From positions 62,001 through 126,000 of the forward strand of contig JANWWS010000046.1 of NCBI GenBank assembly GCA_025055765.1: a DNA stretch of 64,000 nt, in the 5' to 3' direction. This DNA comes from Leptospiraceae bacterium. Its GTDB lineage: Bacteria > Spirochaetota > Leptospiria > Turneriellales > Turneriellaceae. Below the pieces are notes generated by a model that saw only the letters and a program-made list of their open reading frames with translations, was not told the origin of the DNA and searched no databases. Positions 53,411 through 64,000 of this stretch are shown one piece after another. The position numbers were made by a program, and so were the translations under genes. Each line of letters opens with the position of its first letter. Position 1 is the stretch's first letter.

Positions 53411-54298
53411 ATGGCACAGACATTGGTAAATACAGTTGATGGTAGAATTTTTGTGTATTTTGAAAATCCTCCTAAAAAGGGGGATTGGATTTTCTTCTTA
53501 CATGGATATCCTGACTCGCATGAAACATTTAGTTACCAATATGATTACTTGAAAGGGAAGTATGGGCTTCTTGCTATTGATTTGCCGGGAGTCGGCCAAA
53601 GTGAGCCACCATCTAGTCGGGCGGGCTATCATATTGAAAATCTTCTGCCGCGTTTAAACCAAGTCATATCCGCCATAGCAGGTGAGGAAACCAAATTGCA
53701 TTTTGTGGGGCATGACTGGGGAGCTATGATTTTGTGGGTGTATATTTGCCATCCTCTTTTTAGTAAGAGGGTTAAGAGCTTTACGGCAATAAGCGGACCT
53801 CACCCAGCTATGGCTAGACAAAACCTCATTGACAAGTTGGGGTCGCTTGAGCCTACAAAAATGGCTGAGGCAATTCGACAGACTCTTATGTCGGGTTATA
53901 TCTTTTTCTTTCAAACCCCCTTTTTACCAGAATTTGTGTGGGAAGCTGCCCCGTCCTTTGTTTGGAAAAACACCCTAAGGCGAGGTGGTCTACCCTCCTA
54001 TGACCCCATGTACGAGCTACCCGAGGAGAAAATTAAAGCCCAGGCCATCCAGCCCATAAACCTCTATCGTGAGCTATTGCAAGGTATGCCGGTGGATTTA
54101 CCTCGTCGGATCGAACTTCCCGTACAGCTAATTATTCCAAACCATGATTTTGCTATTAGCCCGCAAATTTATGACAATGTCACGAACTTCGTGACCTACC
54201 TAACAGTACAAAGCCTTGAAGCCAATCATTGGGTTCACCGGGAAAGACCCGATGCCGTAAACCGCTTTTTAGAAAGCTTTATTGCAAAAAATAATTAG
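53411..54298 (+). CDS. Alpha/beta hydrolase, epoxide hydrolase-like
   Basis: A 295-residue hydrolase. The oxyanion motif is FFLHGYPDSHETF, and the nucleophile is the Asp in FVGHDWGAMI, so an Asp-nucleophile enzyme such as an epoxide hydrolase or haloacid/haloalkane-type hydrolase. The acid site NHDFAIS and the base His in ANHWVHRERPD are present. I prefer ATG 53411, which has GAGG five bases upstream, over ATG 53369. Single plus-strand gene between two minus-strand operons; its stop overlaps that of the DUF547 gene by four bases. Confidence 0.85.
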   Translation: MAQTLVNTVDGRIFVYFENPPKKGDWIFFLHGYPDSHETFSYQYDYLKGKYGLLAIDLPGVGQSEPPSSRAGYHIENLLPRLNQVISAIAGEETKLHFVGHDWGAMILWVYICHPLFSKRVKSFTAISGPHPAMARQNLIDKLGSLEPTKMAEAIRQTLMSGYIFFFQTPFLPEFVWEAAPSFVWKNTLRRGGLPSYDPMYELPEEKIKAQAIQPINLYRELLQGMPVDLPRRIELPVQLIIPNHDFAISPQIYDNVTNFVTYLTVQSLEANHWVHRERPDAVNRFLESFIAKNN

Positions 54299-55086
54299 TT
54301 TTTCTTGTGATCATTTAAAGACCAATTATACGGCAAGAATTCTATAGAAGCCGTGGGGGGGATTTTTTGCCCTGTGTGCTTTTCATAAAATTCTCTTAGG
54401 TTGCCAAAATCAGTTTCGTACCAGCGAAAGAGCTCTGAGAGATAGAGTTTATTTTGAGAACTGTTATAATGGGCATGCCGATTGTCTCGCAAATAGCGCC
54501 TTGCTGCCTTTTGAAATCGCTTTAGTAAATTCTGAGGTGTCCATGCCACCTCTTCTAGAATTGGGCATGACTGGGAGGCGCAATTTAAGGCAAAGTGCAC
54601 ATAGGGATTCTTAAATTCCTTTCGAATAATTTCATGTTCTAAGTAATTCAAACTAATTTTTTGTTTTCTAAAATAAAAAAGGTTTTCAAAAAAATTGCCT
54701 GCGGGAAAATTCTCCATGACGGAGACTATAGGATAATAAAGGACAACCTGGTATAGAACCACTGCATTATAGAGATTTATGTAAAGGCAAAGTCGCTCCT
54801 CGGCCGAAGCCAACGTAGAGATATCAATACTTTGAAAATAGTGAATCACCTCGCGAAGTCTATCTCGAAAAGTGTGCAGCTTAGCATAATCCACTTCTCC
54901 TTTTCTATTGATGGCTTTAAGAATGGCATTATAATGTTTGTAGTCAACGTGGCGCAACTTCCTTAAAATCCTCTCCTCTGCTATCCCGGGAATATCCCTG
55001 TGGGCAAAATCAGGCCATATAAAAAAGCTTAACAACATATAGGTAAAAGCATAATCCCTACCCTTCAAGGAAAAAGCAAAAATCAT
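54295..55086 (-). CDS. DUF547 domain protein, probably exported
   Basis: A protein of about 263 residues. After a hydrophobic leader (GRDYAFTYMLLSFFIWPDFAH) it shows the DUF547 signature: GEVDYAKLHTFRDRL, LCLYINLYNAVVLYQV, and the Cys/His core VHFALNCASQSCPILEEVAW (about 166-185). The family is of unknown function; the conserved Cys/Asn/His look like an active site. Last gene of the nuclease/lipoprotein operon, 27 bases after the endonuclease gene. Confidence 0.82.
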   Translation of the reverse strand: MIFAFSLKGRDYAFTYMLLSFFIWPDFAHRDIPGIAEERILRKLRHVDYKHYNAILKAINRKGEVDYAKLHTFRDRLREVIHYFQSIDISTLASAEERLCLYINLYNAVVLYQVVLYYPIVSVMENFPAGNFFENLFYFRKQKISLNYLEHEIIRKEFKNPYVHFALNCASQSCPILEEVAWTPQNLLKRFQKAARRYLRDNRHAHYNSSQNKLYLSELFRWYETDFGNLREFYEKHTGQKIPPTASIEFLPYNWSLNDHKKN

Positions 55087-55113
55087 ACCCAAAACCACGA
55101 AAGAAGTAGGTTT

Positions 55114-56229
55114 TTAAAAATCATCAATCTTATCTACCCATTCTGGGAAATCCACAAATGGATTTCTATTGCCTTGAATGCGGTAGATCCATTCATTGCG
55201 CAGTTTTTCTGCCGCCGAGACAGGATCTTGTTTATGCCATTGACGTAACACATTCTCAAGCCAAGTTTGGATGTTTGCTTTATCAAATTGATAGTTTGAT
55301 TTCCAACAACTATCTTCTTGGTAATAGCGGGTGGCCATGTAAAAATAATTACGAGCAATATCTCCTTTTACCTCGGGGGGTGGCTCCAACACCTTATTAG
55401 CAGAACAACCGGGGATAGAGTTAAAGAAGTAACCAGGCATAGCCGCGACATTGGGGCTACCAAATTTTGCCCCGCTGAATCTTGGAAAGTGAGAGTCCTC
55501 AGTTTGCACGATACCAAAAGCACAGGTTCCCCGTGTTTGGTTAATCGATTTTCGTGCAGGAATAACATGGTGTAGGTCCGTGAAGGCCCTATAGTCATAA
55601 TAATTGGTGTTCCCTGTGATCTCAGGCTTGCTTTGGCAATAACCCGAGGCACTGTTTGCCTCGAAAAAATCCTTGGGCCAACTATGCTCACGATTGTATA
55701 CCCCCTCCTGACCCCAAAGTGGTGTTGGGGCTGCTAAATTATCGGCTGTTCCTGGGTCCTGTTGGCCACCACTTGACACACTGAGAATTTGACTAGGCGT
55801 TGCATAGCAGCGGTAGTCGTACCAATCAAGCAACCGGTTAGGGGGGCAATTACTACCGCTGCTATGGGGGTTTACTCCTTTATAGGCAAAAACCACGTAG
55901 GCATCCCAGACATCAAAGCGCTCCGGTACTTGCTCTGAATAGTTCTCTAGCGAGATATACTCAACCGTAAAATGAAGGGGGTAGCTCCCTGAATTCTTTG
56001 TGTAAGGCAGCACGCGGTGGTCCTTAATTTTCTTTTGTAGCTCTGCTTTAAAAGCCTCACCAGAAAGGCAAATATTCACACCCTCATAGTAGTTACGATA
56101 AAGCCCCGTATGGAGCTGGCAGGCAGGATTCTGGATTTGGCCCATGACCTTGTAGCGCAGCTCACCCTCCTCCTGCTGGACACAGCCATAGAAGAGGAGT
56201 GCAACTATGGCCCCTATCCCCTTTCTCAT
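55114..56229 (-). CDS. EndA/NucM-family endonuclease I lipoprotein
   Basis: A 371-residue endonuclease I (beta-beta-alpha-metal) protein. Motifs: VYNREHSWPKDFF (about 178-190), TDLHHVIPARKSINQTRG (about 218-234, catalytic His and Mg2+ ligand), GDIARNYFYMATRYY and NEWIYRIQGNRNPFVDFPEWV near the end, where the family has its metal-binding Asn. The front is a lipoprotein signal with LFYGC (Cys16), so the enzyme is lipid-anchored outside the cytoplasm. Family members are Vibrio Vvn/Dns and E. coli EndA, secreted or periplasmic non-specific nucleases. A perfect AGGAGG lies just before ATG 56229. Confidence 0.93.
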   Translation of the reverse strand: MRKGIGAIVALLFYGCVQQEEGELRYKVMGQIQNPACQLHTGLYRNYYEGVNICLSGEAFKAELQKKIKDHRVLPYTKNSGSYPLHFTVEYISLENYSEQVPERFDVWDAYVVFAYKGVNPHSSGSNCPPNRLLDWYDYRCYATPSQILSVSSGGQQDPGTADNLAAPTPLWGQEGVYNREHSWPKDFFEANSASGYCQSKPEITGNTNYYDYRAFTDLHHVIPARKSINQTRGTCAFGIVQTEDSHFPRFSGAKFGSPNVAAMPGYFFNSIPGCSANKVLEPPPEVKGDIARNYFYMATRYYQEDSCWKSNYQFDKANIQTWLENVLRQWHKQDPVSAAEKLRNEWIYRIQGNRNPFVDFPEWVDKIDDF

Positions 56230-56237
56230 ACGTCCTC

Positions 56238-57233
56238 CTATGGCGGCTTTAAGGTTTCGATTTGATGCTTTTGGTCTAGAAGAAGCGTAAGTTCGCTATC
56301 AGGACCAGCGAAAGTGGGCACTATAACAGGTCCTCGCAGGCGAACATAGGCTCCTTCGGCAAGGTTGTAACTAAACATATTATCAATGTCAAAGCCAGAG
56401 AGGGTGCCAGCACCTAAATTATAACTAAGTTTAAAACGGTAGGCTATTTTACTACCCGTACAATTTTGGGCGTCCTGCCAGTTAAGAGCTCCTACACATA
56501 GGATTCCCCAATATGCCTGCTGGTGATCCGGCTGAAAGCGGTAGGGACCCGTAGTACAGGGTGTTTCTTTATAGGTTGGCGAGAGAGTCACAAATCCCGT
56601 GATCTGCCTCATGCGATAAAGATCCTGACCCCGAGAAAAAGGCCCCGCCTGCAGTTGATACCGCACCGGTTGGCGGTGTTGAAGCACCTGAGGATTAGAA
56701 AAATCCGTCGCAACAGGTACAAAATGAGTTGCATTGCCATACCTTCGCGCTTTGGTTACTGTAATTTGCAAGACATCTCCAAAAACAGCAAGGCCATGGT
56801 ATTGGGCGTTCGCAAAGTACTTCATGCTGCTGCTATTGGCCACATTGGTATCCGCTGGATGAAGCCCATAGGCCACAAGTATACCCCCGCTTTGATCTTG
56901 CAGAACAAAGGACCGAAGATAAATTTCCGGGGAGGGGGGATTACTACAAATATTATTATCTATGGTAAAGGCAAAATGGGAAGGGATAGTGACAATCCCG
57001 CTAATGGTAATGGGTGAGCTAAGCGTATGCTCGTTGTTGTCGGGCAAGGATTGGATGGCCGTAAGGAGGCTTGAGATACTTCCATCATGGCTTGTAATTC
57101 CCTCTTCATAAAGAGGATAAGATAGTTTTTGGGCTTCTTTTAGGATGTCCTCATTGCGAACATCATCATGTACGCCCGAGATACAGCGGGAGAGCCCCAA
57201 GAGGATTGAGCACAAAATCACTCTTATTTTCAT
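56238..57233 (-). CDS. Lipoprotein with OB-fold (DUF5689-like) domain
   Basis: A 331-residue lipoprotein (ILLGLSRC, Cys about 17; Arg at -1). The mature part resembles the OB-fold region often fused to extracellular nucleases: ITISGIVTIPSHFAFTID (about 77-94), YLRSFVLQDQSGGILVAYG (about 105-123), FGDVLQITVTKARRYGN, then a second strand set with TGFVTLSP and AYVRLRGPVIVP. It probably binds nucleic acid or a partner protein. Its ATG overlaps the stop of the PLD-LTD gene (ATGA), and the endonuclease begins eight bases after its stop. Confidence 0.72.
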   Translation of the reverse strand: MKIRVILCSILLGLSRCISGVHDDVRNEDILKEAQKLSYPLYEEGITSHDGSISSLLTAIQSLPDNNEHTLSSPITISGIVTIPSHFAFTIDNNICSNPPSPEIYLRSFVLQDQSGGILVAYGLHPADTNVANSSSMKYFANAQYHGLAVFGDVLQITVTKARRYGNATHFVPVATDFSNPQVLQHRQPVRYQLQAGPFSRGQDLYRMRQITGFVTLSPTYKETPCTTGPYRFQPDHQQAYWGILCVGALNWQDAQNCTGSKIAYRFKLSYNLGAGTLSGFDIDNMFSYNLAEGAYVRLRGPVIVPTFAGPDSELTLLLDQKHQIETLKPP

Positions 57234-59626
57234 GGCAGTGCTAGCCAGCGAGAATTCATCTTACCGGGTGTGGCCACCGTATATTCCTGGTACTCTGGTT
57301 TTATGTAAGCTCGCTTGTCCTCACTAAAACCATCAGCGGGGTTACGGGTCGAATGATCCCAACTTTGCGGATCACTTCCAGGACCAAAGGGGATCTTACG
57401 CTCCATAGAAACGAAGTATTGCCTATCCGATGCCACAATGTCACATACACGATTAATGGATTGGGTTTCATCGTTTGCCAAATTACTATTAGCCAGAGGA
57501 AAAATATCCCCCATGGTAGGGATATCTGGAAAAATAGCTCCCACAGCATTTCTTGTGCTATCACTTGTCATTGCTGAACCATGAAAACCTCCTTTGAAGT
57601 AACCCACATCACTGTGACTGATGGGTGCGCCCGCGCCATGGCGGTTTTTACCAGCAATATCGATTAGGTTACCCCTTGAATCTCTTAGTTCAATCCAAAG
57701 TGAGGTGCGGTGCGGGTACCCTGCCTCATTTCCCTGATGCATGTGGTAGGGGTTGAAATAACCCGAACCGGGAAAACGATCAACTTCCGGAACCCATGCT
57801 GGGCGGCATTTACCTCCTGGATTTTGAAACTCAGGCCAGTGGAAATCTGGAAAACTCCCAGCACGCCCAGTATTGCTGGTGCGGCGATCGAACAACGTAA
57901 AAAAATTCGAAAGACCGTTAAAGGGATTATAGGCAACTAGTTTTTTAGTGAGATCCCCCACCGCAGGATCAAAAAGGTCTTGCGATGGGAAGCGGTAGGC
58001 ATCAGCTTGTATGTCTTGGCGCTGATCTGTCTGCCAGGCCACAAGAAATCCTTTGGGTGGAATCACCGTCCCACCAGGAAACCCCAAAACCCCTCTCTTG
58101 CGCAAAGATTCCCAAAAGGGCCAGCCAGAATGGTACACCCCCGGATCTGTGTAATTTTCAATAACAGGAAAATAGATAGTCCAATAAGAGACATCCACAG
58201 GATAATCTTGGGGATTATAAAGTTCTATAAATTCATTAGCATCATAAGCATAGTATTTGCCATTTAAGTTACGCATAGATCCAGCATAATTTACTTCCGA
58301 TATAATAATTTGCTGGTAAGGAGAGCCTGGGCATTCTCCGCTGGCAAGGGGGCTGTCCTGACGGTTGCGGCAAAAACCCCTTCTGTCACGGTTCAAAGGT
58401 ACGGCATCTTTATAAATGTGCCGCCAAAATTCCATGTAGCGCTCCACAATAGCTGGAGAATGGATGACGATTAAATTTTCGTCATTGTTGTTGTTCGCAT
58501 TCGGGGACCAGTTAAAACTACCTAGAAGGAGCTTTGCCTGGGGCGTACCCACATCCACCGCAATGGTCTTGGCATGCAGTCGCCCACCCCCTGCCTGCCA
58601 GTCTCCAATGTAATTATTGTTTTCATTGCCATCAATGCGAAAGTCAATGGGCGCATGGCAGCGGGTATTGGTTGCGTTGGGCACATCCCAAGTTGCCGTG
58701 AAGGGGTTTTTATCAGTTCCAGGAGTCTGAAACCCATAAGGATGTCCACAAGCTCCCGCCATGCGGTAGATTTCAACATATTGATTATGGGTTAGCTGAG
58801 AGCGATCCATAATCCCACGCACATGGCGCTTGCCCCCATCAAGCTGGTTTAGCCTTGTAAATTGCTGGTGTTTTTCGATTAAGAGCCGACCAAGAGCATC
58901 ATGAGTAAAGGCAAAGATGGCAAAATAAATATTCTCTCTCGCTTCCGCTACGGCCTGTAAAAAACGGCTCATGGCATCTTCATGGGGAGAAAAATAAGCC
59001 TCTACCTTCACTCCCCCCACATCAAACACATTATTATAATCAACCCGTTCTTTGGCATGGCCAAAGCGCCCTGACATCATTAGCTGATGGTCATTAATAA
59101 AGTCTTCCGCTAGTTCTCTCGATTCAATTATGACCCAAGCATTATAATTTCGGTCAATTTCACTGTCTGTAATATTTCCCGTACCTGTCATGACATAACG
59201 GCGATCCACCACCATGAACTTATTATGCTGGATTGACTGGGAATTTCCTGAGATGAGTTTCGCATTGGGGTAGCGCCGCATGAGATCCTCAAACCGCAAA
59301 TACCCCTCGCCACCACTCATGTATGTACCAAAATCCCCCGCAAGTTGTACGTCAAGACCACGCCGTACCGCCCGCAGCACCGCATCAATAATGACCTTGC
59401 GGGAAAAACCATACATGGCCCAATAAACCTCTTTGCGAGCCTCATCTATAAGTTGCGCCGTTCTTACATCAAACTCGGGCTTACGATGCCGCTCTGGCTG
59501 CGTTCCTGGGTAATTAAAATAAATCTCAAGCAAACGCCCGTTGGGGAACTCTTTTTTTTGTTCAGGAACTTTCGAACAACTAAATACAAGCAAGAAAAAG
59601 AGAATTAAGTTTAGCTTTTTTACCAT
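57230..59626 (-). CDS. Phospholipase D-family nuclease lipoprotein with lamin-tail domain
   Basis: A 798-residue lipoprotein (FFLLVFSC, Cys17). Two intact HKD motifs form one active site: H134-N-K136...D141 in QHNKFMVVDRRYVMTGTGN and H351-A-K353...D358 in LHAKTIAVDVG, followed by LLGSFNWSPNA. This double-HKD unit hydrolyses phosphodiesters in DNA (Nuc-type) or phospholipids. From about residue 438 a lamin-tail domain follows (IIISEVNYAGS, ANEFIELYNPQDYPVDVSYWTI), interrupted by a long insert and closing with LWIELRDSRGNLIDIAGK. Lamin-tail domains in bacteria often accompany secreted nucleases. Its start overlaps the previous gene by seven bases. Confidence 0.92.
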   Translation of the reverse strand: MVKKLNLILFFLLVFSCSKVPEQKKEFPNGRLLEIYFNYPGTQPERHRKPEFDVRTAQLIDEARKEVYWAMYGFSRKVIIDAVLRAVRRGLDVQLAGDFGTYMSGGEGYLRFEDLMRRYPNAKLISGNSQSIQHNKFMVVDRRYVMTGTGNITDSEIDRNYNAWVIIESRELAEDFINDHQLMMSGRFGHAKERVDYNNVFDVGGVKVEAYFSPHEDAMSRFLQAVAEARENIYFAIFAFTHDALGRLLIEKHQQFTRLNQLDGGKRHVRGIMDRSQLTHNQYVEIYRMAGACGHPYGFQTPGTDKNPFTATWDVPNATNTRCHAPIDFRIDGNENNNYIGDWQAGGGRLHAKTIAVDVGTPQAKLLLGSFNWSPNANNNNDENLIVIHSPAIVERYMEFWRHIYKDAVPLNRDRRGFCRNRQDSPLASGECPGSPYQQIIISEVNYAGSMRNLNGKYYAYDANEFIELYNPQDYPVDVSYWTIYFPVIENYTDPGVYHSGWPFWESLRKRGVLGFPGGTVIPPKGFLVAWQTDQRQDIQADAYRFPSQDLFDPAVGDLTKKLVAYNPFNGLSNFFTLFDRRTSNTGRAGSFPDFHWPEFQNPGGKCRPAWVPEVDRFPGSGYFNPYHMHQGNEAGYPHRTSLWIELRDSRGNLIDIAGKNRHGAGAPISHSDVGYFKGGFHGSAMTSDSTRNAVGAIFPDIPTMGDIFPLANSNLANDETQSINRVCDIVASDRQYFVSMERKIPFGPGSDPQSWDHSTRNPADGFSEDKRAYIKPEYQEYTVATPGKMNSRWLALP

Positions 59627-61176
59627 ACATCACCCCCAGAACCAGCGACTTGGTAAATAAACTCGGCTAAGGTGGCAAAATCACGAAAAAAACCGCGAGG
59701 ACTTTCACTGGCTATGGGCTCCACCATCATGACAAGTGAGTCGGTTATTGGGAAAAAATCATTTCTTGTGCGGCGTGGTTCACTATCCTGGCTGTTATCA
59801 TTATCATAGTAATAGCGTTTGCGCAGATCGGAAAACATTAGGATCACGCGTGGGTGGCGAAAGTCATGGTCTATAACAAAAAGGTTAAAAGGCAAAGGTT
59901 GGGGGTATTTGCGGATGGCAATAGTCCCGGATTGTTGGTCTGTACCATTTATGCTATCACGTAATGTTTTTAAAGCGCAGTGAATGGAGCTTCGGTTGGC
60001 ATGCGACTGAGTTTGGGCATTTCCGTTGGCATCGATATAGGGATAGGTTACCGTTTGCGTGTTAATCGTGGGGCAACTCGCATTCATAAGTGCATTGTAG
60101 TTTAGGTCCATGGGAGCCCATGGACTCCCCACGTTTGTATCAGGCAACCCGACTTCATTGCCAAATACCCCTTTTAAACTAAAAGGCACACCGTAGATTT
60201 GAGGCTTACGAACATGGTACTCCAAAATGTTGAGAATATGGCTGCGATTTAAATGTGGGGCACTGATATCTTGGATCATATCTTGGGTTAAGGCTCTAGC
60301 TACAAATAAGATACGACGCTCTGCACGCATTAACTCAGTTAAGGTGGCAACGATAGGCTTTTCCTGAGGGGCATACCAAAAGTGAAACCGCAGGTGATCA
60401 ATGGTAAAATGGGTGTTTGGATCCACCTGTGCTTTGTTGTGCCGAAAAAGTCCAAAGTTTGGTACTCCCTCATCGCCAAAAACACCTCCCCAAGCTAACT
60501 GGTGTATTTCATTGGCCATATCATTACAAATATCAAACGAGGAAAAATGAAAAGCCACACTATAGCTACCCCCAACAAAGTTATCTGGATTTACCCCCCC
60601 TGTCATAGCCCAACATTCCGTGCGATCGGCTACTAAGAGATTGTACTCAACTCGCCCATCATAAGGGGCCGCATTATATTTACGAGACCGGTTTTGTCGA
60701 TTAAAATTAAGCCTGGTACGCAAAATTCTGTCCCTGGCTGACTTTCCTGCTAGTGTATTGCCATCATACTGCAGGGCTTTTTGAAAAGCACTACGCTGAT
60801 CTAAAAACATGTCCTGGCTGCGCAAAGCCTTGAGTTGGGCAAAACCAGGATTTTTGTTCTCGTTTCTTTGATCACCTGCAATAGCCACAGCAAGACCTCT
60901 TTGCGCCTTATTTATAAGGGCTTCGGTTACCTCAGCGTCATGGAGGTCGGCAAATGCCGCCAAGATCTCTCTTTGGGCAGAGGCAATTATCTTTAAAAGT
61001 TGCTCCTTAGCCCAGGGGTTCCCTCCTGAAGGTAGGCCAATAGAGTAGCGGTAGCGCTGCAGTCTCAATTCCCTATCCCGGGTCTTTGTAGAGCAAGGGC
61101 CAAAATTCGCCAGTATTGCCCAGAGTAGACCTATAGCCCCAACACGTAAGAATTTTTTGTTGCTGTGGATTTCCAT
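59620..61176 (-). CDS. Pseudo-phospholipase D-like lipoprotein lacking the HKD residues
   Basis: A 518-residue lipoprotein (WAILANFGPC, Cys about 28; Pro at -1). Its layout copies the PLD fold of the next protein: helical start with LKIIASAQREILAAFADL, first half with VEYNLLVADRTECWAMTGGVNPDN and second half with PFNLFVIDHDFRHPRVILMFSD. In both sites the catalytic His and Lys are gone (H-x-K became Y-N-L and the second has no H-x-K), while the Asp and following Gly-rich strand remain. It is therefore probably a non-catalytic binding partner. Four bases after the LTD gene and overlapping the active PLD gene. Confidence 0.72.
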   Translation of the reverse strand: MEIHSNKKFLRVGAIGLLWAILANFGPCSTKTRDRELRLQRYRYSIGLPSGGNPWAKEQLLKIIASAQREILAAFADLHDAEVTEALINKAQRGLAVAIAGDQRNENKNPGFAQLKALRSQDMFLDQRSAFQKALQYDGNTLAGKSARDRILRTRLNFNRQNRSRKYNAAPYDGRVEYNLLVADRTECWAMTGGVNPDNFVGGSYSVAFHFSSFDICNDMANEIHQLAWGGVFGDEGVPNFGLFRHNKAQVDPNTHFTIDHLRFHFWYAPQEKPIVATLTELMRAERRILFVARALTQDMIQDISAPHLNRSHILNILEYHVRKPQIYGVPFSLKGVFGNEVGLPDTNVGSPWAPMDLNYNALMNASCPTINTQTVTYPYIDANGNAQTQSHANRSSIHCALKTLRDSINGTDQQSGTIAIRKYPQPLPFNLFVIDHDFRHPRVILMFSDLRKRYYYDNDNSQDSEPRRTRNDFFPITDSLVMMVEPIASESPRGFFRDFATLAEFIYQVAGSGGDVW

Positions 61177-61180
61177 AACA

Positions 61181-61981
61181 CTATTGGTAGTCAGGGGTAT
61201 TTATCTCACCCGGGGAGGCAAAGGTACGCAGAGAATAGTCAGGATGGACATTCCGCCCCGAATAGCCGGGAAAATAAGCTAGACAGCCCTTACCCAAAAG
61301 TTTGGTCGTACTAAGGCCCGGTGAATTTTCATTACATGGACTGTAGCTAAACCAACTTGAAATAGAGCCCCCTTCTTCCTCAAAATTATTGTCCGTACGC
61401 TCCATAGATCGGGTTACCACCCCATCAAAACCACCCGCAAAGGGCCGTCCCTTTCGCTGGTTTACTTCGTTTTCTATCAGGAAATTTTCCGCTGTCTTCG
61501 TTTCTATGGTCCAATCACGGTCGGGTATAAATAATGCTGGTAGATGGATTAGCTTAAAATTGGGGTCACAGTTGGGATTTTCAGCAAGAAGGCATGGGCG
61601 AAAAGCTCCTGTGGTTTTTGCCGCCACCACTGCTAAACCGCCAATAGGTACAATATTGTCTTGGCCCGCGGGAACAACAAATTCACGGTAGTAGGCCCCC
61701 CGTAAGATAAAGCGCCATCCCGTGAGGTCAATAGGTTTATTACAGTCCCGATTAAAAATCTCTATAAAATCATCATCGGGATCGTGAATCCCTGTATTTT
61801 TTACCGAACCCGCCCAATTAATCTCATTCATGGTAGCACAGCCACGCCGCCTATCTAAATTAATAGCCGTAGGCCAGGGCTCCCCCACCTCCGTTGAGCA
61901 GCGCAGTACAAGGAGAAAACCCACCAAAGTACCGATCCTGCTTCTTAGGCTCGAGCTAGGCCACATAGCTTTGCTTAACAT
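61181..61981 (-). CDS. Lamin-tail-domain lipoprotein
   Basis: A 266-residue lipoprotein. The signal is long and basic (SSLRSRIGTLVGFLLVLRC, Cys about 28; Arg at -1). A single lamin-tail (LTD) domain follows: MNEINWAGSVKNTGIHDPDDDFIEIFNRDC (about 52-81), PIDLTGWRFILRG and IVPIGGLAVVAAK. It closes with Gly/Ser-rich and Cys-containing sequence. It matches the LTD of the PLD protein downstream and may be its anchor or adaptor. The ATG 61981 is used because it gives the lipobox. Eight bases after the porin stop. Confidence 0.82.
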   Translation of the reverse strand: MLSKAMWPSSSLRSRIGTLVGFLLVLRCSTEVGEPWPTAINLDRRRGCATMNEINWAGSVKNTGIHDPDDDFIEIFNRDCNKPIDLTGWRFILRGAYYREFVVPAGQDNIVPIGGLAVVAAKTTGAFRPCLLAENPNCDPNFKLIHLPALFIPDRDWTIETKTAENFLIENEVNQRKGRPFAGGFDGVVTRSMERTDNNFEEEGGSISSWFSYSPCNENSPGLSTTKLLGKGCLAYFPGYSGRNVHPDYSLRTFASPGEINTPDYQ

Positions 61982-61988
61982 AATACGA

Positions 61989-63815
61989 TTAAAAGGCAAT
62001 CGTGGAGCGCAAAAATATCCCGGTAAAATTTGCGTCAGCAGGTCCACCCTTGGGTACCCCGTTTCGGCTTACTACATCCTCGATAGGTTTTTTATAAAAA
62101 CTCCCGGGGACAAAGTAAGAAGCTGTAATCTGGAACATAAGTAGGGGATTTGGAAAATACTGTAAGGTGAAATTCACCTCATGTCCCAAGTCTTTACCTA
62201 ATTTTTGCTGCGCCTCGATTTCTGCCCGGGATTTCCAGGGATTTAATATTAGGTCTAGATTTTGCTCGTTAAAATTCACCTTAGTGGTAGAAGTATCTTT
62301 CAGGTACCACCAATCTAATTTGGCCACAAGCTGGCCCCAGAGCTCAGCACCTAACGCCGCATGGAGAAGCATGGCTCCTGCTTTTCGATTGGCATCAAAG
62401 GGTGTGTCATCAATACCATTATAGTTCACATAGCCAGAGGGCCTCACCCCCCAGTAGCGGCGCAATAGGGTGCCACCCACTCGGTCACCCCGCATGCCAA
62501 TAAACCCATGGGAGGTCATGTTGCCGTTTTCATCAAACTCAGCACCTTGGGCATAAAAAAAGTCAGCCTCAACAAGGGGGGAGATGATCCCAAAAGCCTT
62601 AGTTTGCAAAATAGTACCTGCTCCATAAGCCAATTTTTTATAATCAGCTCGTGGCTCTCCCTGCCTTTTAAGATCCTGCCCTTGGGAGTAGCCGAAATCA
62701 GCGTAGACAATCCATTGACGGAAAATGGGCATGATGTCATCAAAGCGGTAGGATATACGGCTACCCGCAATTAAGGACCAGTCATTGTCGGAATAGTTAC
62801 CAATGCGACCGTTTTCACTATTATCCGCACCGCCCTTGTTTCCCCTTACCCGCGCATAAATGGTGTAAAGGCGGGGATCCAGCCTACTTTTTATTTTCTT
62901 GCGGAAAAACGGCATGGCACTTAGCACTATGCCTGTGCGGTAGGTAGAGACATCACCTCGTAATCCCGCCATTTTCCCTTCCTCATGGCGAGAAAAGTAT
63001 TGAAATTCATCGTTCCAGCGGTCATTTTCCCCCGCTCCAAAGCTATTGGCTCCCGAGTAGACATCCACAGCTAAGATTTTTATATCGATTAGGTCCTTTT
63101 GGTGAACATTGACAACTAAGGCATCGAGAACATCCCGGAGCATGTAGTCGTTGGGGATCCCACCTATACTAAAGAATTGGCGACCAATAACGAGATCTGA
63201 GGAAAAGCCACCTTTGTTAAAAAATTCCCAAAAGATGTTAGCACGAGCAATTCTTGTACCAGGATTGCCATTGCCCTGCAGCTGAAAACTACCCCAGACC
63301 CCATCAAAACCAAAAGATAGCTCCATTCCCACCCGATGTTCGGGAAAGAGAAACTGGGTATCAAACTTCGCCCTTGTCAGAGCAAGACCTTGGGCATCAT
63401 CGGAAGTTCGTATTTGAAAATCGTTGGTGGAGTTGACTTTCCTTAAATCTGCATTATCGTAGCCATGGAATTCCTGGAGCATATTGAATCCCCAATAGAA
63501 CTCCATGACTGGCTTTTCTTTGCGTATGGCAAATTGCCGCTCAAATTCAAAGATCCATTCTCCCTCACGATCTATAGCCCCCACGGAAAGTTGGCTTTCC
63601 ATTGTGGCCTCTTTGGACTTAGACCTCTCCTTGGCTTTTTTGTCTTTCTCAGCTGTCTCCTCCTTCCCTGCTGGCACCCCCGCTTTCTCCTCTCGTGGAG
63701 GGATTTGAGAAAACTCATCTATTTGGCCATGGCTCATATCCCCTAGGGCAAGGTATAAGGTCAAAAAGAGGGGACTTGCTAGGTTGTTTCTATAATTGCG
63801 AAAATAACGAATCAT
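61989..63815 (-). CDS. Large outer-membrane porin-like protein with charged N-terminal region
   Basis: A 608-residue exported protein: signal peptide (about 1-32, ending SHGQ), then some 45 residues of Lys/Glu-rich, Pro-containing sequence, then a large barrel with many aromatic-ended strands (GMELSFGFDGVWGSFQL, WIVYADFGYSQGQDL, VNFTLQYFPNPLLMFQITASYFVPG) and C-terminal Phe (LRSTIAF), a BAM insertion signal. It resembles a porin of some 16-18 strands. The charged stretch could be a periplasmic contact. I use ATG 63815; ATG 63827 adds four residues. Leads into the nuclease genes eight bases on. Confidence 0.75.
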   Translation of the reverse strand: MIRYFRNYRNNLASPLFLTLYLALGDMSHGQIDEFSQIPPREEKAGVPAGKEETAEKDKKAKERSKSKEATMESQLSVGAIDREGEWIFEFERQFAIRKEKPVMEFYWGFNMLQEFHGYDNADLRKVNSTNDFQIRTSDDAQGLALTRAKFDTQFLFPEHRVGMELSFGFDGVWGSFQLQGNGNPGTRIARANIFWEFFNKGGFSSDLVIGRQFFSIGGIPNDYMLRDVLDALVVNVHQKDLIDIKILAVDVYSGANSFGAGENDRWNDEFQYFSRHEEGKMAGLRGDVSTYRTGIVLSAMPFFRKKIKSRLDPRLYTIYARVRGNKGGADNSENGRIGNYSDNDWSLIAGSRISYRFDDIMPIFRQWIVYADFGYSQGQDLKRQGEPRADYKKLAYGAGTILQTKAFGIISPLVEADFFYAQGAEFDENGNMTSHGFIGMRGDRVGGTLLRRYWGVRPSGYVNYNGIDDTPFDANRKAGAMLLHAALGAELWGQLVAKLDWWYLKDTSTTKVNFNEQNLDLILNPWKSRAEIEAQQKLGKDLGHEVNFTLQYFPNPLLMFQITASYFVPGSFYKKPIEDVVSRNGVPKGGPADANFTGIFLRSTIAF

Positions 63816-63863
63816 AACCCAACCCATACCGTATTAGCCTTCTCGTTTAGCTAGTCAATTCCT

Positions 63864-64000
63864 TTACATTCTCCCCTGGTAAAGCCGTACAGACATTCCA
63901 GCACCGAAGAACCAGCCCTCGTCAACACCATGAGTTTCCCGACCCCAAAAAGTGTAAAGCTCAAGCCCTGTCACAACATAGCCAAACCACAACCCACCCT
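63864..64000 (-). CDS. Outer-membrane barrel protein, C-terminal end only
   Basis: The last 44 codons of a minus-strand gene lie at the window edge, ending TAA at 63864-63866. The residues (LWFGYVVTGLELYTFWGRE, then WFFGAGMSVRLYQGRM) have the alternating aromatic pattern of a beta-barrel. It sits 48 bases upstream of the porin start and is probably the gene before it in the operon. The rest is outside the window. Confidence 0.55.
   Translation of the reverse strand, partial: GGLWFGYVVTGLELYTFWGRETHGVDEGWFFGAGMSVRLYQGRM

Follow-up and report, generated by a model that had tools for sequence, protein, structure and literature searches.

What does a tightly packed run of genes for putative lipoproteins, nucleases, and outer-membrane barrels do for a diderm spirochete? 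We asked this of positions 54295 to 64000 of a 64,000-nucleotide window (the whole stretch of DNA analyzed; G000:C26:62001-126000) from the 2.5-Mb genome of a Leptospiraceae bacterium (GTDB family Turneriellaceae; GenBank assembly GCA_025055765.1, contig JANWWS010000046.1). An earlier note, made from the letters of the sequence, had read this run as a coordinated system for cutting and scavenging environmental DNA. That proposal is supported here by a gene order conserved in relatives and by the presence of EndA, 5'-nucleotidases, and NupC in distant clusters, and we consider it probable that the locus is a nucleic acid-scavenging operon.

Gene order is conserved in Turneriellaceae

Six genes of the run encode, in order, a 612-amino-acid (aa) predicted outer-membrane barrel (barrel-612), a lipoprotein with a single lamin-tail domain (LTD), a PLD homologue that has lost its catalytic residues (pseudo-PLD), a predicted nuclease joining PLD and LTD domains (PLD-LTD), an OB-fold lipoprotein, and an endonuclease I lipoprotein (EndA; Table 1). 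The earlier note had named absence of the cluster from related genomes as the main finding that would overturn its reading; instead, this order was kept in seven other Turneriellaceae genomes. It is uninterrupted in G003, G004, G005, G006, and G007; in G009 the operon lies on two contigs, and in G002 the contig ends after PLD-LTD. Among these genomes is the cultured type strain of Turneriella parva (G005; PMC3746428). The PLD-LTD gene of G003 has an in-frame stop, possibly an assembly error. Because the order is conserved among genomes whose PLD-LTD proteins are only 44 to 81% identical, chance is excluded as its explanation. Orthologues of barrel-612 are 45 to 76% identical. Across the class, the OB protein turned up in no genomes but the seven whose assemblies include this part of the operon.

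One protein, PLD-LTD, was also searched against a contig collection covering 84,980 species and matched only close relatives in metagenome-assembled genomes (MAGs) of the Turneriella/Leptospiraceae type (named relatives were Turneriella, Leptospiraceae, and Spirochaetota MAGs). With the same query, a plasmid search returned only short PLD-domain matches.

Two predicted nucleases are accompanied by a pseudoenzyme

The PLD-LTD protein carries two intact HKD motifs in one chain (HNKFMVVD and HAKTIAVD, both of the form HxKx4D), and both are intact in every orthologue in which the region is present. Its nearest relatives of solved structure are mostly nucleases (Nuc, 1byr, and NucT, 6ehi; also mitochondrial PLD), a relatedness that predicts nucleic acid phosphodiesterase activity for PLD-LTD. 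The EndA protein belongs to the endonuclease I (EndA/Vvn) family (PF04231; 132 bits versus a cutoff of 25), and its N-R-E-H active-site motif is invariant in seven orthologues, with the residues that follow varying in two. Pfam domains and motifs thus bear out the double-HKD PLD and the EndA-type endonuclease of the earlier note, and the two intact predicted nucleases of the operon have unrelated folds.

In the 518-aa pseudo-PLD, motif 1 is E177-x-N179-x4-D184 and motif 2 is P429-x-N431-x4-D436. The catalytic His and Lys are missing from both motifs in all eight orthologues, as expected of the catalytically dead homologue described previously. Its Pfam PLDc_2 match falls below the cutoff (E = 0.0028); profile-profile comparison with PLD-LTD gives 98.6%, and its profile matches the Nuc endonuclease (1byr; E = 4e-6). 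Judged from its sequence, the protein is a pseudoenzyme that has retained PLD homology and lost the catalytic residues.

The same division is seen in a wider set of PLD sequences, 25 active and 15 dead, that were aligned together: all active members keep HxKx4D in both motifs. Dead members have lost the His; in motif 1, Lys is replaced by Asn in nearly all and the Asp is retained, and motif 2 is mostly N-x4-D as well, with few exceptions (the alignment misplaced motif 2 for the pseudo-PLD family of the window, for which the true reading is PFNLFVID). In the maximum-likelihood tree, in which sequences are labelled by motif state and three dead ones form long branches, a single branch splits active from dead PLDs (support, 100/100). 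The simplest reading is that a single ancient duplication was followed by catalytic loss and that both copies were then kept together for a long time.

Turneriellaceae also have very large PLD/LTD-like proteins (1,270 to 1,765 aa; G005:C1:1975627-1976976, with homologues in G007, G008, and G010), which form a third branch of the family.

LTD, OB, and barrel proteins

Lipobox cysteines are conserved in five families (LTD, pseudo-PLD, PLD-LTD, OB, and EndA), in agreement with the earlier count of at least five lipoproteins. Eight orthologues of the LTD lipoprotein retain Cys28, which lies at the signal's end; the lamin-tail domain itself scores below the curated Pfam cutoff (23.8 bits, E = 6e-5, versus 34.3 bits) and aligns with the LTD of PLD-LTD (hhalign, 95%). 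The OB lipoprotein had no Pfam match. Despite this, the OB fold assigned to it in the earlier note is upheld by an AlphaFold model (pLDDT 75) for which Foldseek returned the tandem-OB single-strand binders RPA, SSB, POT1, and RADX (RPA, E = 2e-6; SSB, TM score up to 0.69, target normalized). On the strength of this predicted model, the protein is assigned an OB fold, and we propose that it may bind single-stranded nucleic acid.

The 612-aa protein, which had been taken for an outer-membrane barrel, has about 18 predicted strands and a C-terminal Phe, and the best fold matches of its low-confidence model (pLDDT 54) are AlgE (E = 2.6e-11; TM score of ~0.54 by target) and OprD, all of which support that assignment. 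No sequence relative of this protein was found in the PDB. A positively charged barrel was considered as support for a polyanion pore and dropped, since the net charge is about neutral to negative.

A second barrel-612 homologue lies in the host genome at G000:C5:49975-51885 (L075), unlinked to PLD genes; Turneriella parva has one too.

The cassette recurs across Spirochaetota, in places with nucleotidases and a nucleoside transporter

Of the 48 genomes of the class, 28 have the barrel family; a broader profile found it in 44 of 345 genomes that sample the phylum. In distant Spirochaetota, the barrel again occurs together with a two-HKD PLD-LTD, an HKD-less PLD, and LTD lipoproteins. In family f6 (G034, G031, G032, G026, G039, and G041), the genes encode, in order, an HKD-less PLD/LTD protein, an LTD-type protein, a barrel, and a two-HKD PLD-LTD (read in G041 from a short contig that cuts the first protein); in family f5 (G019), the order is LTD protein, barrel, and PLD-LTD. 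The pairing is seen again beyond the class, in G054, G100, G137, G068, G104, and family f36. Barrels without PLD neighbors also occur (the second barrel of f1; G013 to G017). As traced by homology, the cassette is spread across the spirochete phylum, far more widely than the host genome.

In G129 of family f36, the cluster encodes, in order, two LTD proteins, a PLD-LTD, two 5'-nucleotidase-family proteins (a Pfam scan of the locus detected the metallophosphatase domain in one of the two), a barrel, a pseudo-PLD, a pair of endonuclease I proteins, and a nucleoside transporter of the NupC type. By its predicted functions, this set amounts to a complete pathway from polymer to nucleoside. Genes matching the cluster by homology, Endonuclease I included, occur in G106 and G125, and G100 has one 5'-nucleotidase homologue in common with it. 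In the host genome, NupC lies on contig C1 and 5'-nucleotidase domains lie on C49 and C15, away from the operon.

On contig C15 (L008:1-16392), a second PLD-LTD of the host genome sits beside a TonB-dependent receptor and a lipoprotein with a 5'-nucleotidase C-terminal domain; the locus also encodes a TPR/ABC-substrate-binding-like protein, an LTD protein that lacks HKD motifs, and a pair of SpoIIE phosphatase proteins. The relatives examined did not show this linkage, which weakens the neighborhood as a source of strong evidence. Near the second PLD-LTD of several Turneriellaceae lies an ATP-grasp domain fused to an FMN-dependent dehydrogenase (L080:11317-13650, L084:9855-12260, and L085:2447-4828). 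Elsewhere, a NupC-type nucleoside transporter has N-terminal bacterial Ig-like domains, an unusual architecture (L113:14708-16999).

Probable nucleic acid scavenging and its alternatives

Scavenging is the best reading of the operon, and teichoic acid and phospholipid are disfavored as substrates, because the distant f36 cluster adds EndA, 5'-nucleotidases, and NupC as independent context. The lipoproteins would sit on the outer membrane, where EndA and PLD-LTD would cut DNA or RNA into oligonucleotides. The OB, LTD, and pseudo-PLD proteins may hold nucleic acid strands or may join the active PLD in a complex, with the pseudo-PLD as the partner that does not cut. The barrel would then pass digestion products to the periplasm, where 5'-nucleotidases would free phosphate and from which NupC would import nucleosides. 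A more specific picture is that of an ancient, phylum-wide machine in which an active PLD, a strand-binding pseudo-PLD (His lost, Lys to Asn, Asp kept), and LTD and OB lipoproteins are docked on an oligonucleotide-importing channel; this picture is tentative, and we are inclined to doubt it. A docked nuclease and porin would follow a logic comparable to that of SusCD with unrelated parts. No SusC-type TonB-dependent receptor or SusD domain was found among the Pfam-scanned genes of the run, which places it outside the SusCD loci; the separate C15 locus is the only one with a TonB receptor.

Several points weigh against scavenging. The nucleotidase and transporter genes lie outside the host operon and are linked to it only via relatives. 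A role of barrel-612 as an oligonucleotide pore is only suggested, given a model with a pLDDT of 54 and a net charge that is not positive. Enzyme functions are predicted from sequence, and the lipoproteins may be destined for the outer leaflet or for the periplasm, their surface exposure being presumed. Finally, scans for consensus promoters and terminators were at background and do not test cotranscription.

Natural transformation, in which surface nucleases and the OB protein would bind and nick incoming DNA before its passage to ComEC, is quite unlikely. The host genome has a ComEC homologue, and in Helicobacter pylori the PLD nuclease NucT has been linked to transformation as well as to purine salvage (PMC5714352). 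However, no ComEA or ComEC domain was found among the run genes scanned with Pfam, two nucleases would destroy donor DNA, and the 5'-nucleotidases and nucleoside transporter of the relative suit breakdown into nucleosides and not the import of whole strands. A protective or structural role without feeding, such as clearing or remodelling of biofilm DNA, escape from DNA traps, or destruction of phage DNA at the surface, is quite unlikely: the Vibrio and Shewanella nucleases Xds, Dns, and ExeM do act on the DNA of biofilms (PMC6746945, PMC6085458), but neither the channel nor the nucleotidase and transporter partners of relatives would be necessary for such a role. Teichoic acid or a similar phosphodiester polymer (as the earlier note allowed), or else phospholipid, is a very improbable substrate, for although phospholipases also use the PLD fold and the barrel model is nearest to AlgE, a carrier of a nonnucleic polyanion, EndA comes from a nuclease family and has kept the active site, PLD relatives of solved structure are mostly nucleases, the matches of the OB model are nucleic acid binders, and nucleotidases and NupC stand in the cluster of the relative.

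Comparison with known DNA degradation systems

Members of Candidatus Izemoplasmatales have no outer membrane. Their DNA degradation loci cluster extracellular nucleases, phosphohydrolases, and transporters, and a large protein there joins nuclease, nucleic acid-binding, and lamin-tail domains, a likeness drawn by description only (Wasmund et al. 2021, PMC8289736). These loci differ in having ABC transporters, and no outer-membrane barrel or pseudo-PLD is described in the available part of that paper. ExeM of Shewanella and Xds of Vibrio likewise combine an LTD, an OB fold, and a nuclease, and their OB part is essential for activity (PMC6085458, PMC6746945). In those proteins, however, a single polypeptide carries an EEP nuclease, whereas here separate lipoproteins accompany PLD and EndA nucleases; no EEP nuclease domain was found in any Pfam-scanned protein of the run, which sets it apart from ExeM and Xds.

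The extracellular DNA pathway of Vibrio cholerae (Xds/Dns, OmpK, UshA/CpdB/PhoX, and NupC; reviewed in PMC4723616) shares the logic of outside cutting, outer-membrane passage, dephosphorylation, and nucleoside import by NupC. It differs in that OmpK is a Tsx homologue and not of the present barrel family, and the part of the review available describes no pseudo-PLD partner. NucT and Nuc share the HKD motif and fold with the PLD of the operon, and H. pylori NucT is tied to purine salvage (PMC5714352); they are chains of 155 to 180 aa, whereas the PLD of the operon combines two HKDs with an LTD in a single chain and is paired with a dead homologue. In the partial literature on the Izemoplasma loci, ExeM/Xds, and NucT, no such gene set or HKD-less PLD partner is described, which is weak evidence. 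Likewise, a literature search of partial coverage found no paper joining Leptospira with "lamin tail domain" and none describing the cluster in Turneriella.

We conclude that the operon is probably a diderm, lipoprotein-based counterpart of the published DNA degradation loci, one that includes an ancient pseudoenzyme partner. Nucleic acid outside cells makes up a large pool of P, N, and C, and little is known of how diderms bring its digestion products across the outer membrane. The cassette (nucleases, a fixed pseudoenzyme, a protein resembling single-strand binders, and a specific barrel) is a testable candidate for such uptake and is found in a cultured type strain. It could serve as a genomic marker for nucleic acid-eating spirochetes, and a common function would follow for many as yet unassigned LTD, pseudo-PLD, and barrel proteins of spirochete genomes.

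Organization of the locus and its surroundings

Gene calls gave seven complete minus-strand genes and an eighth cut by the window edge, with intergenic distances of -7 to +36 bp, so the tight packing noted previously stands (Table 1). The boundary does not, since the same-strand run goes on beyond the window to an ECF sigma factor and comprises 12 to 13 genes in all, with a widest gap of 44 bp and several overlaps; the run is presumably cotranscribed. For the LTD lipoprotein, the ATG start was taken; a longer open reading frame from GTG would overlap the barrel gene.

Table 1. Genes of the run within and across the edge of the window
Feature	Position	Strand	Basis or remark
612-aa outer-membrane beta-barrel, proposed oligonucleotide channel	61989-63827	-	~18 strands, AlgE/OprD-like fold
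LTD lipoprotein, single lamin-tail domain	61181-61981	-	LTD E = 6e-5; ATG start
Pseudo-PLD lipoprotein, 518 aa	59620-61176	-	PLD fold, neither HxK, Asp retained
PLD-LTD lipoprotein, predicted nuclease	57230-59626	-	PLDc_2 E = 2.7e-30, C-terminal LTD E = 2e-8
Tandem OB-fold lipoprotein, proposed single-strand nucleic acid binder	56238-57233	-	AlphaFold + Foldseek
EndA/endonuclease I lipoprotein	55114-56229	-	Pfam Endonuclease_1 E = 3.6e-38; REHSWP catalytic motif
DUF547 protein	54295-55098	-	Pfam DUF547 E = 1.2e-17; last gene of run
250-aa predicted small outer-membrane barrel, accessory	63864-64616 (64000 = window end)	-	Position kept only in G004

The DUF547 protein had been counted as a member of the system. 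Its Pfam domain was confirmed, but its membership was rejected: the gene adjoins the operon only in the host genome and lies beside it in none of the relatives examined, and it is probably outside the conserved system.

Upstream of the 250-aa barrel gene, outside the window, lie genes for a 222-aa periplasmic protein, two CBM48/AMPK1_CBM-type proteins, the ECF sigma factor, and a PDZ protein. Among the relatives examined, this upstream block, including barrel-250, is common only to G000 and G004, and in both the ECF and CBM48 genes sit directly upstream of the operon. Control of the operon in the host genome probably lies with the ECF sigma factor, together with an anti-sigma-like partner bound to the membrane. 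In the order of these genes, the ECF sigma factor is followed by a membrane-anchored CBM48/AMPK1_CBM protein of anti-sigma type and then by a short second CBM48 gene (L006:11226-12720; 65225-66719 on the scale of the window).

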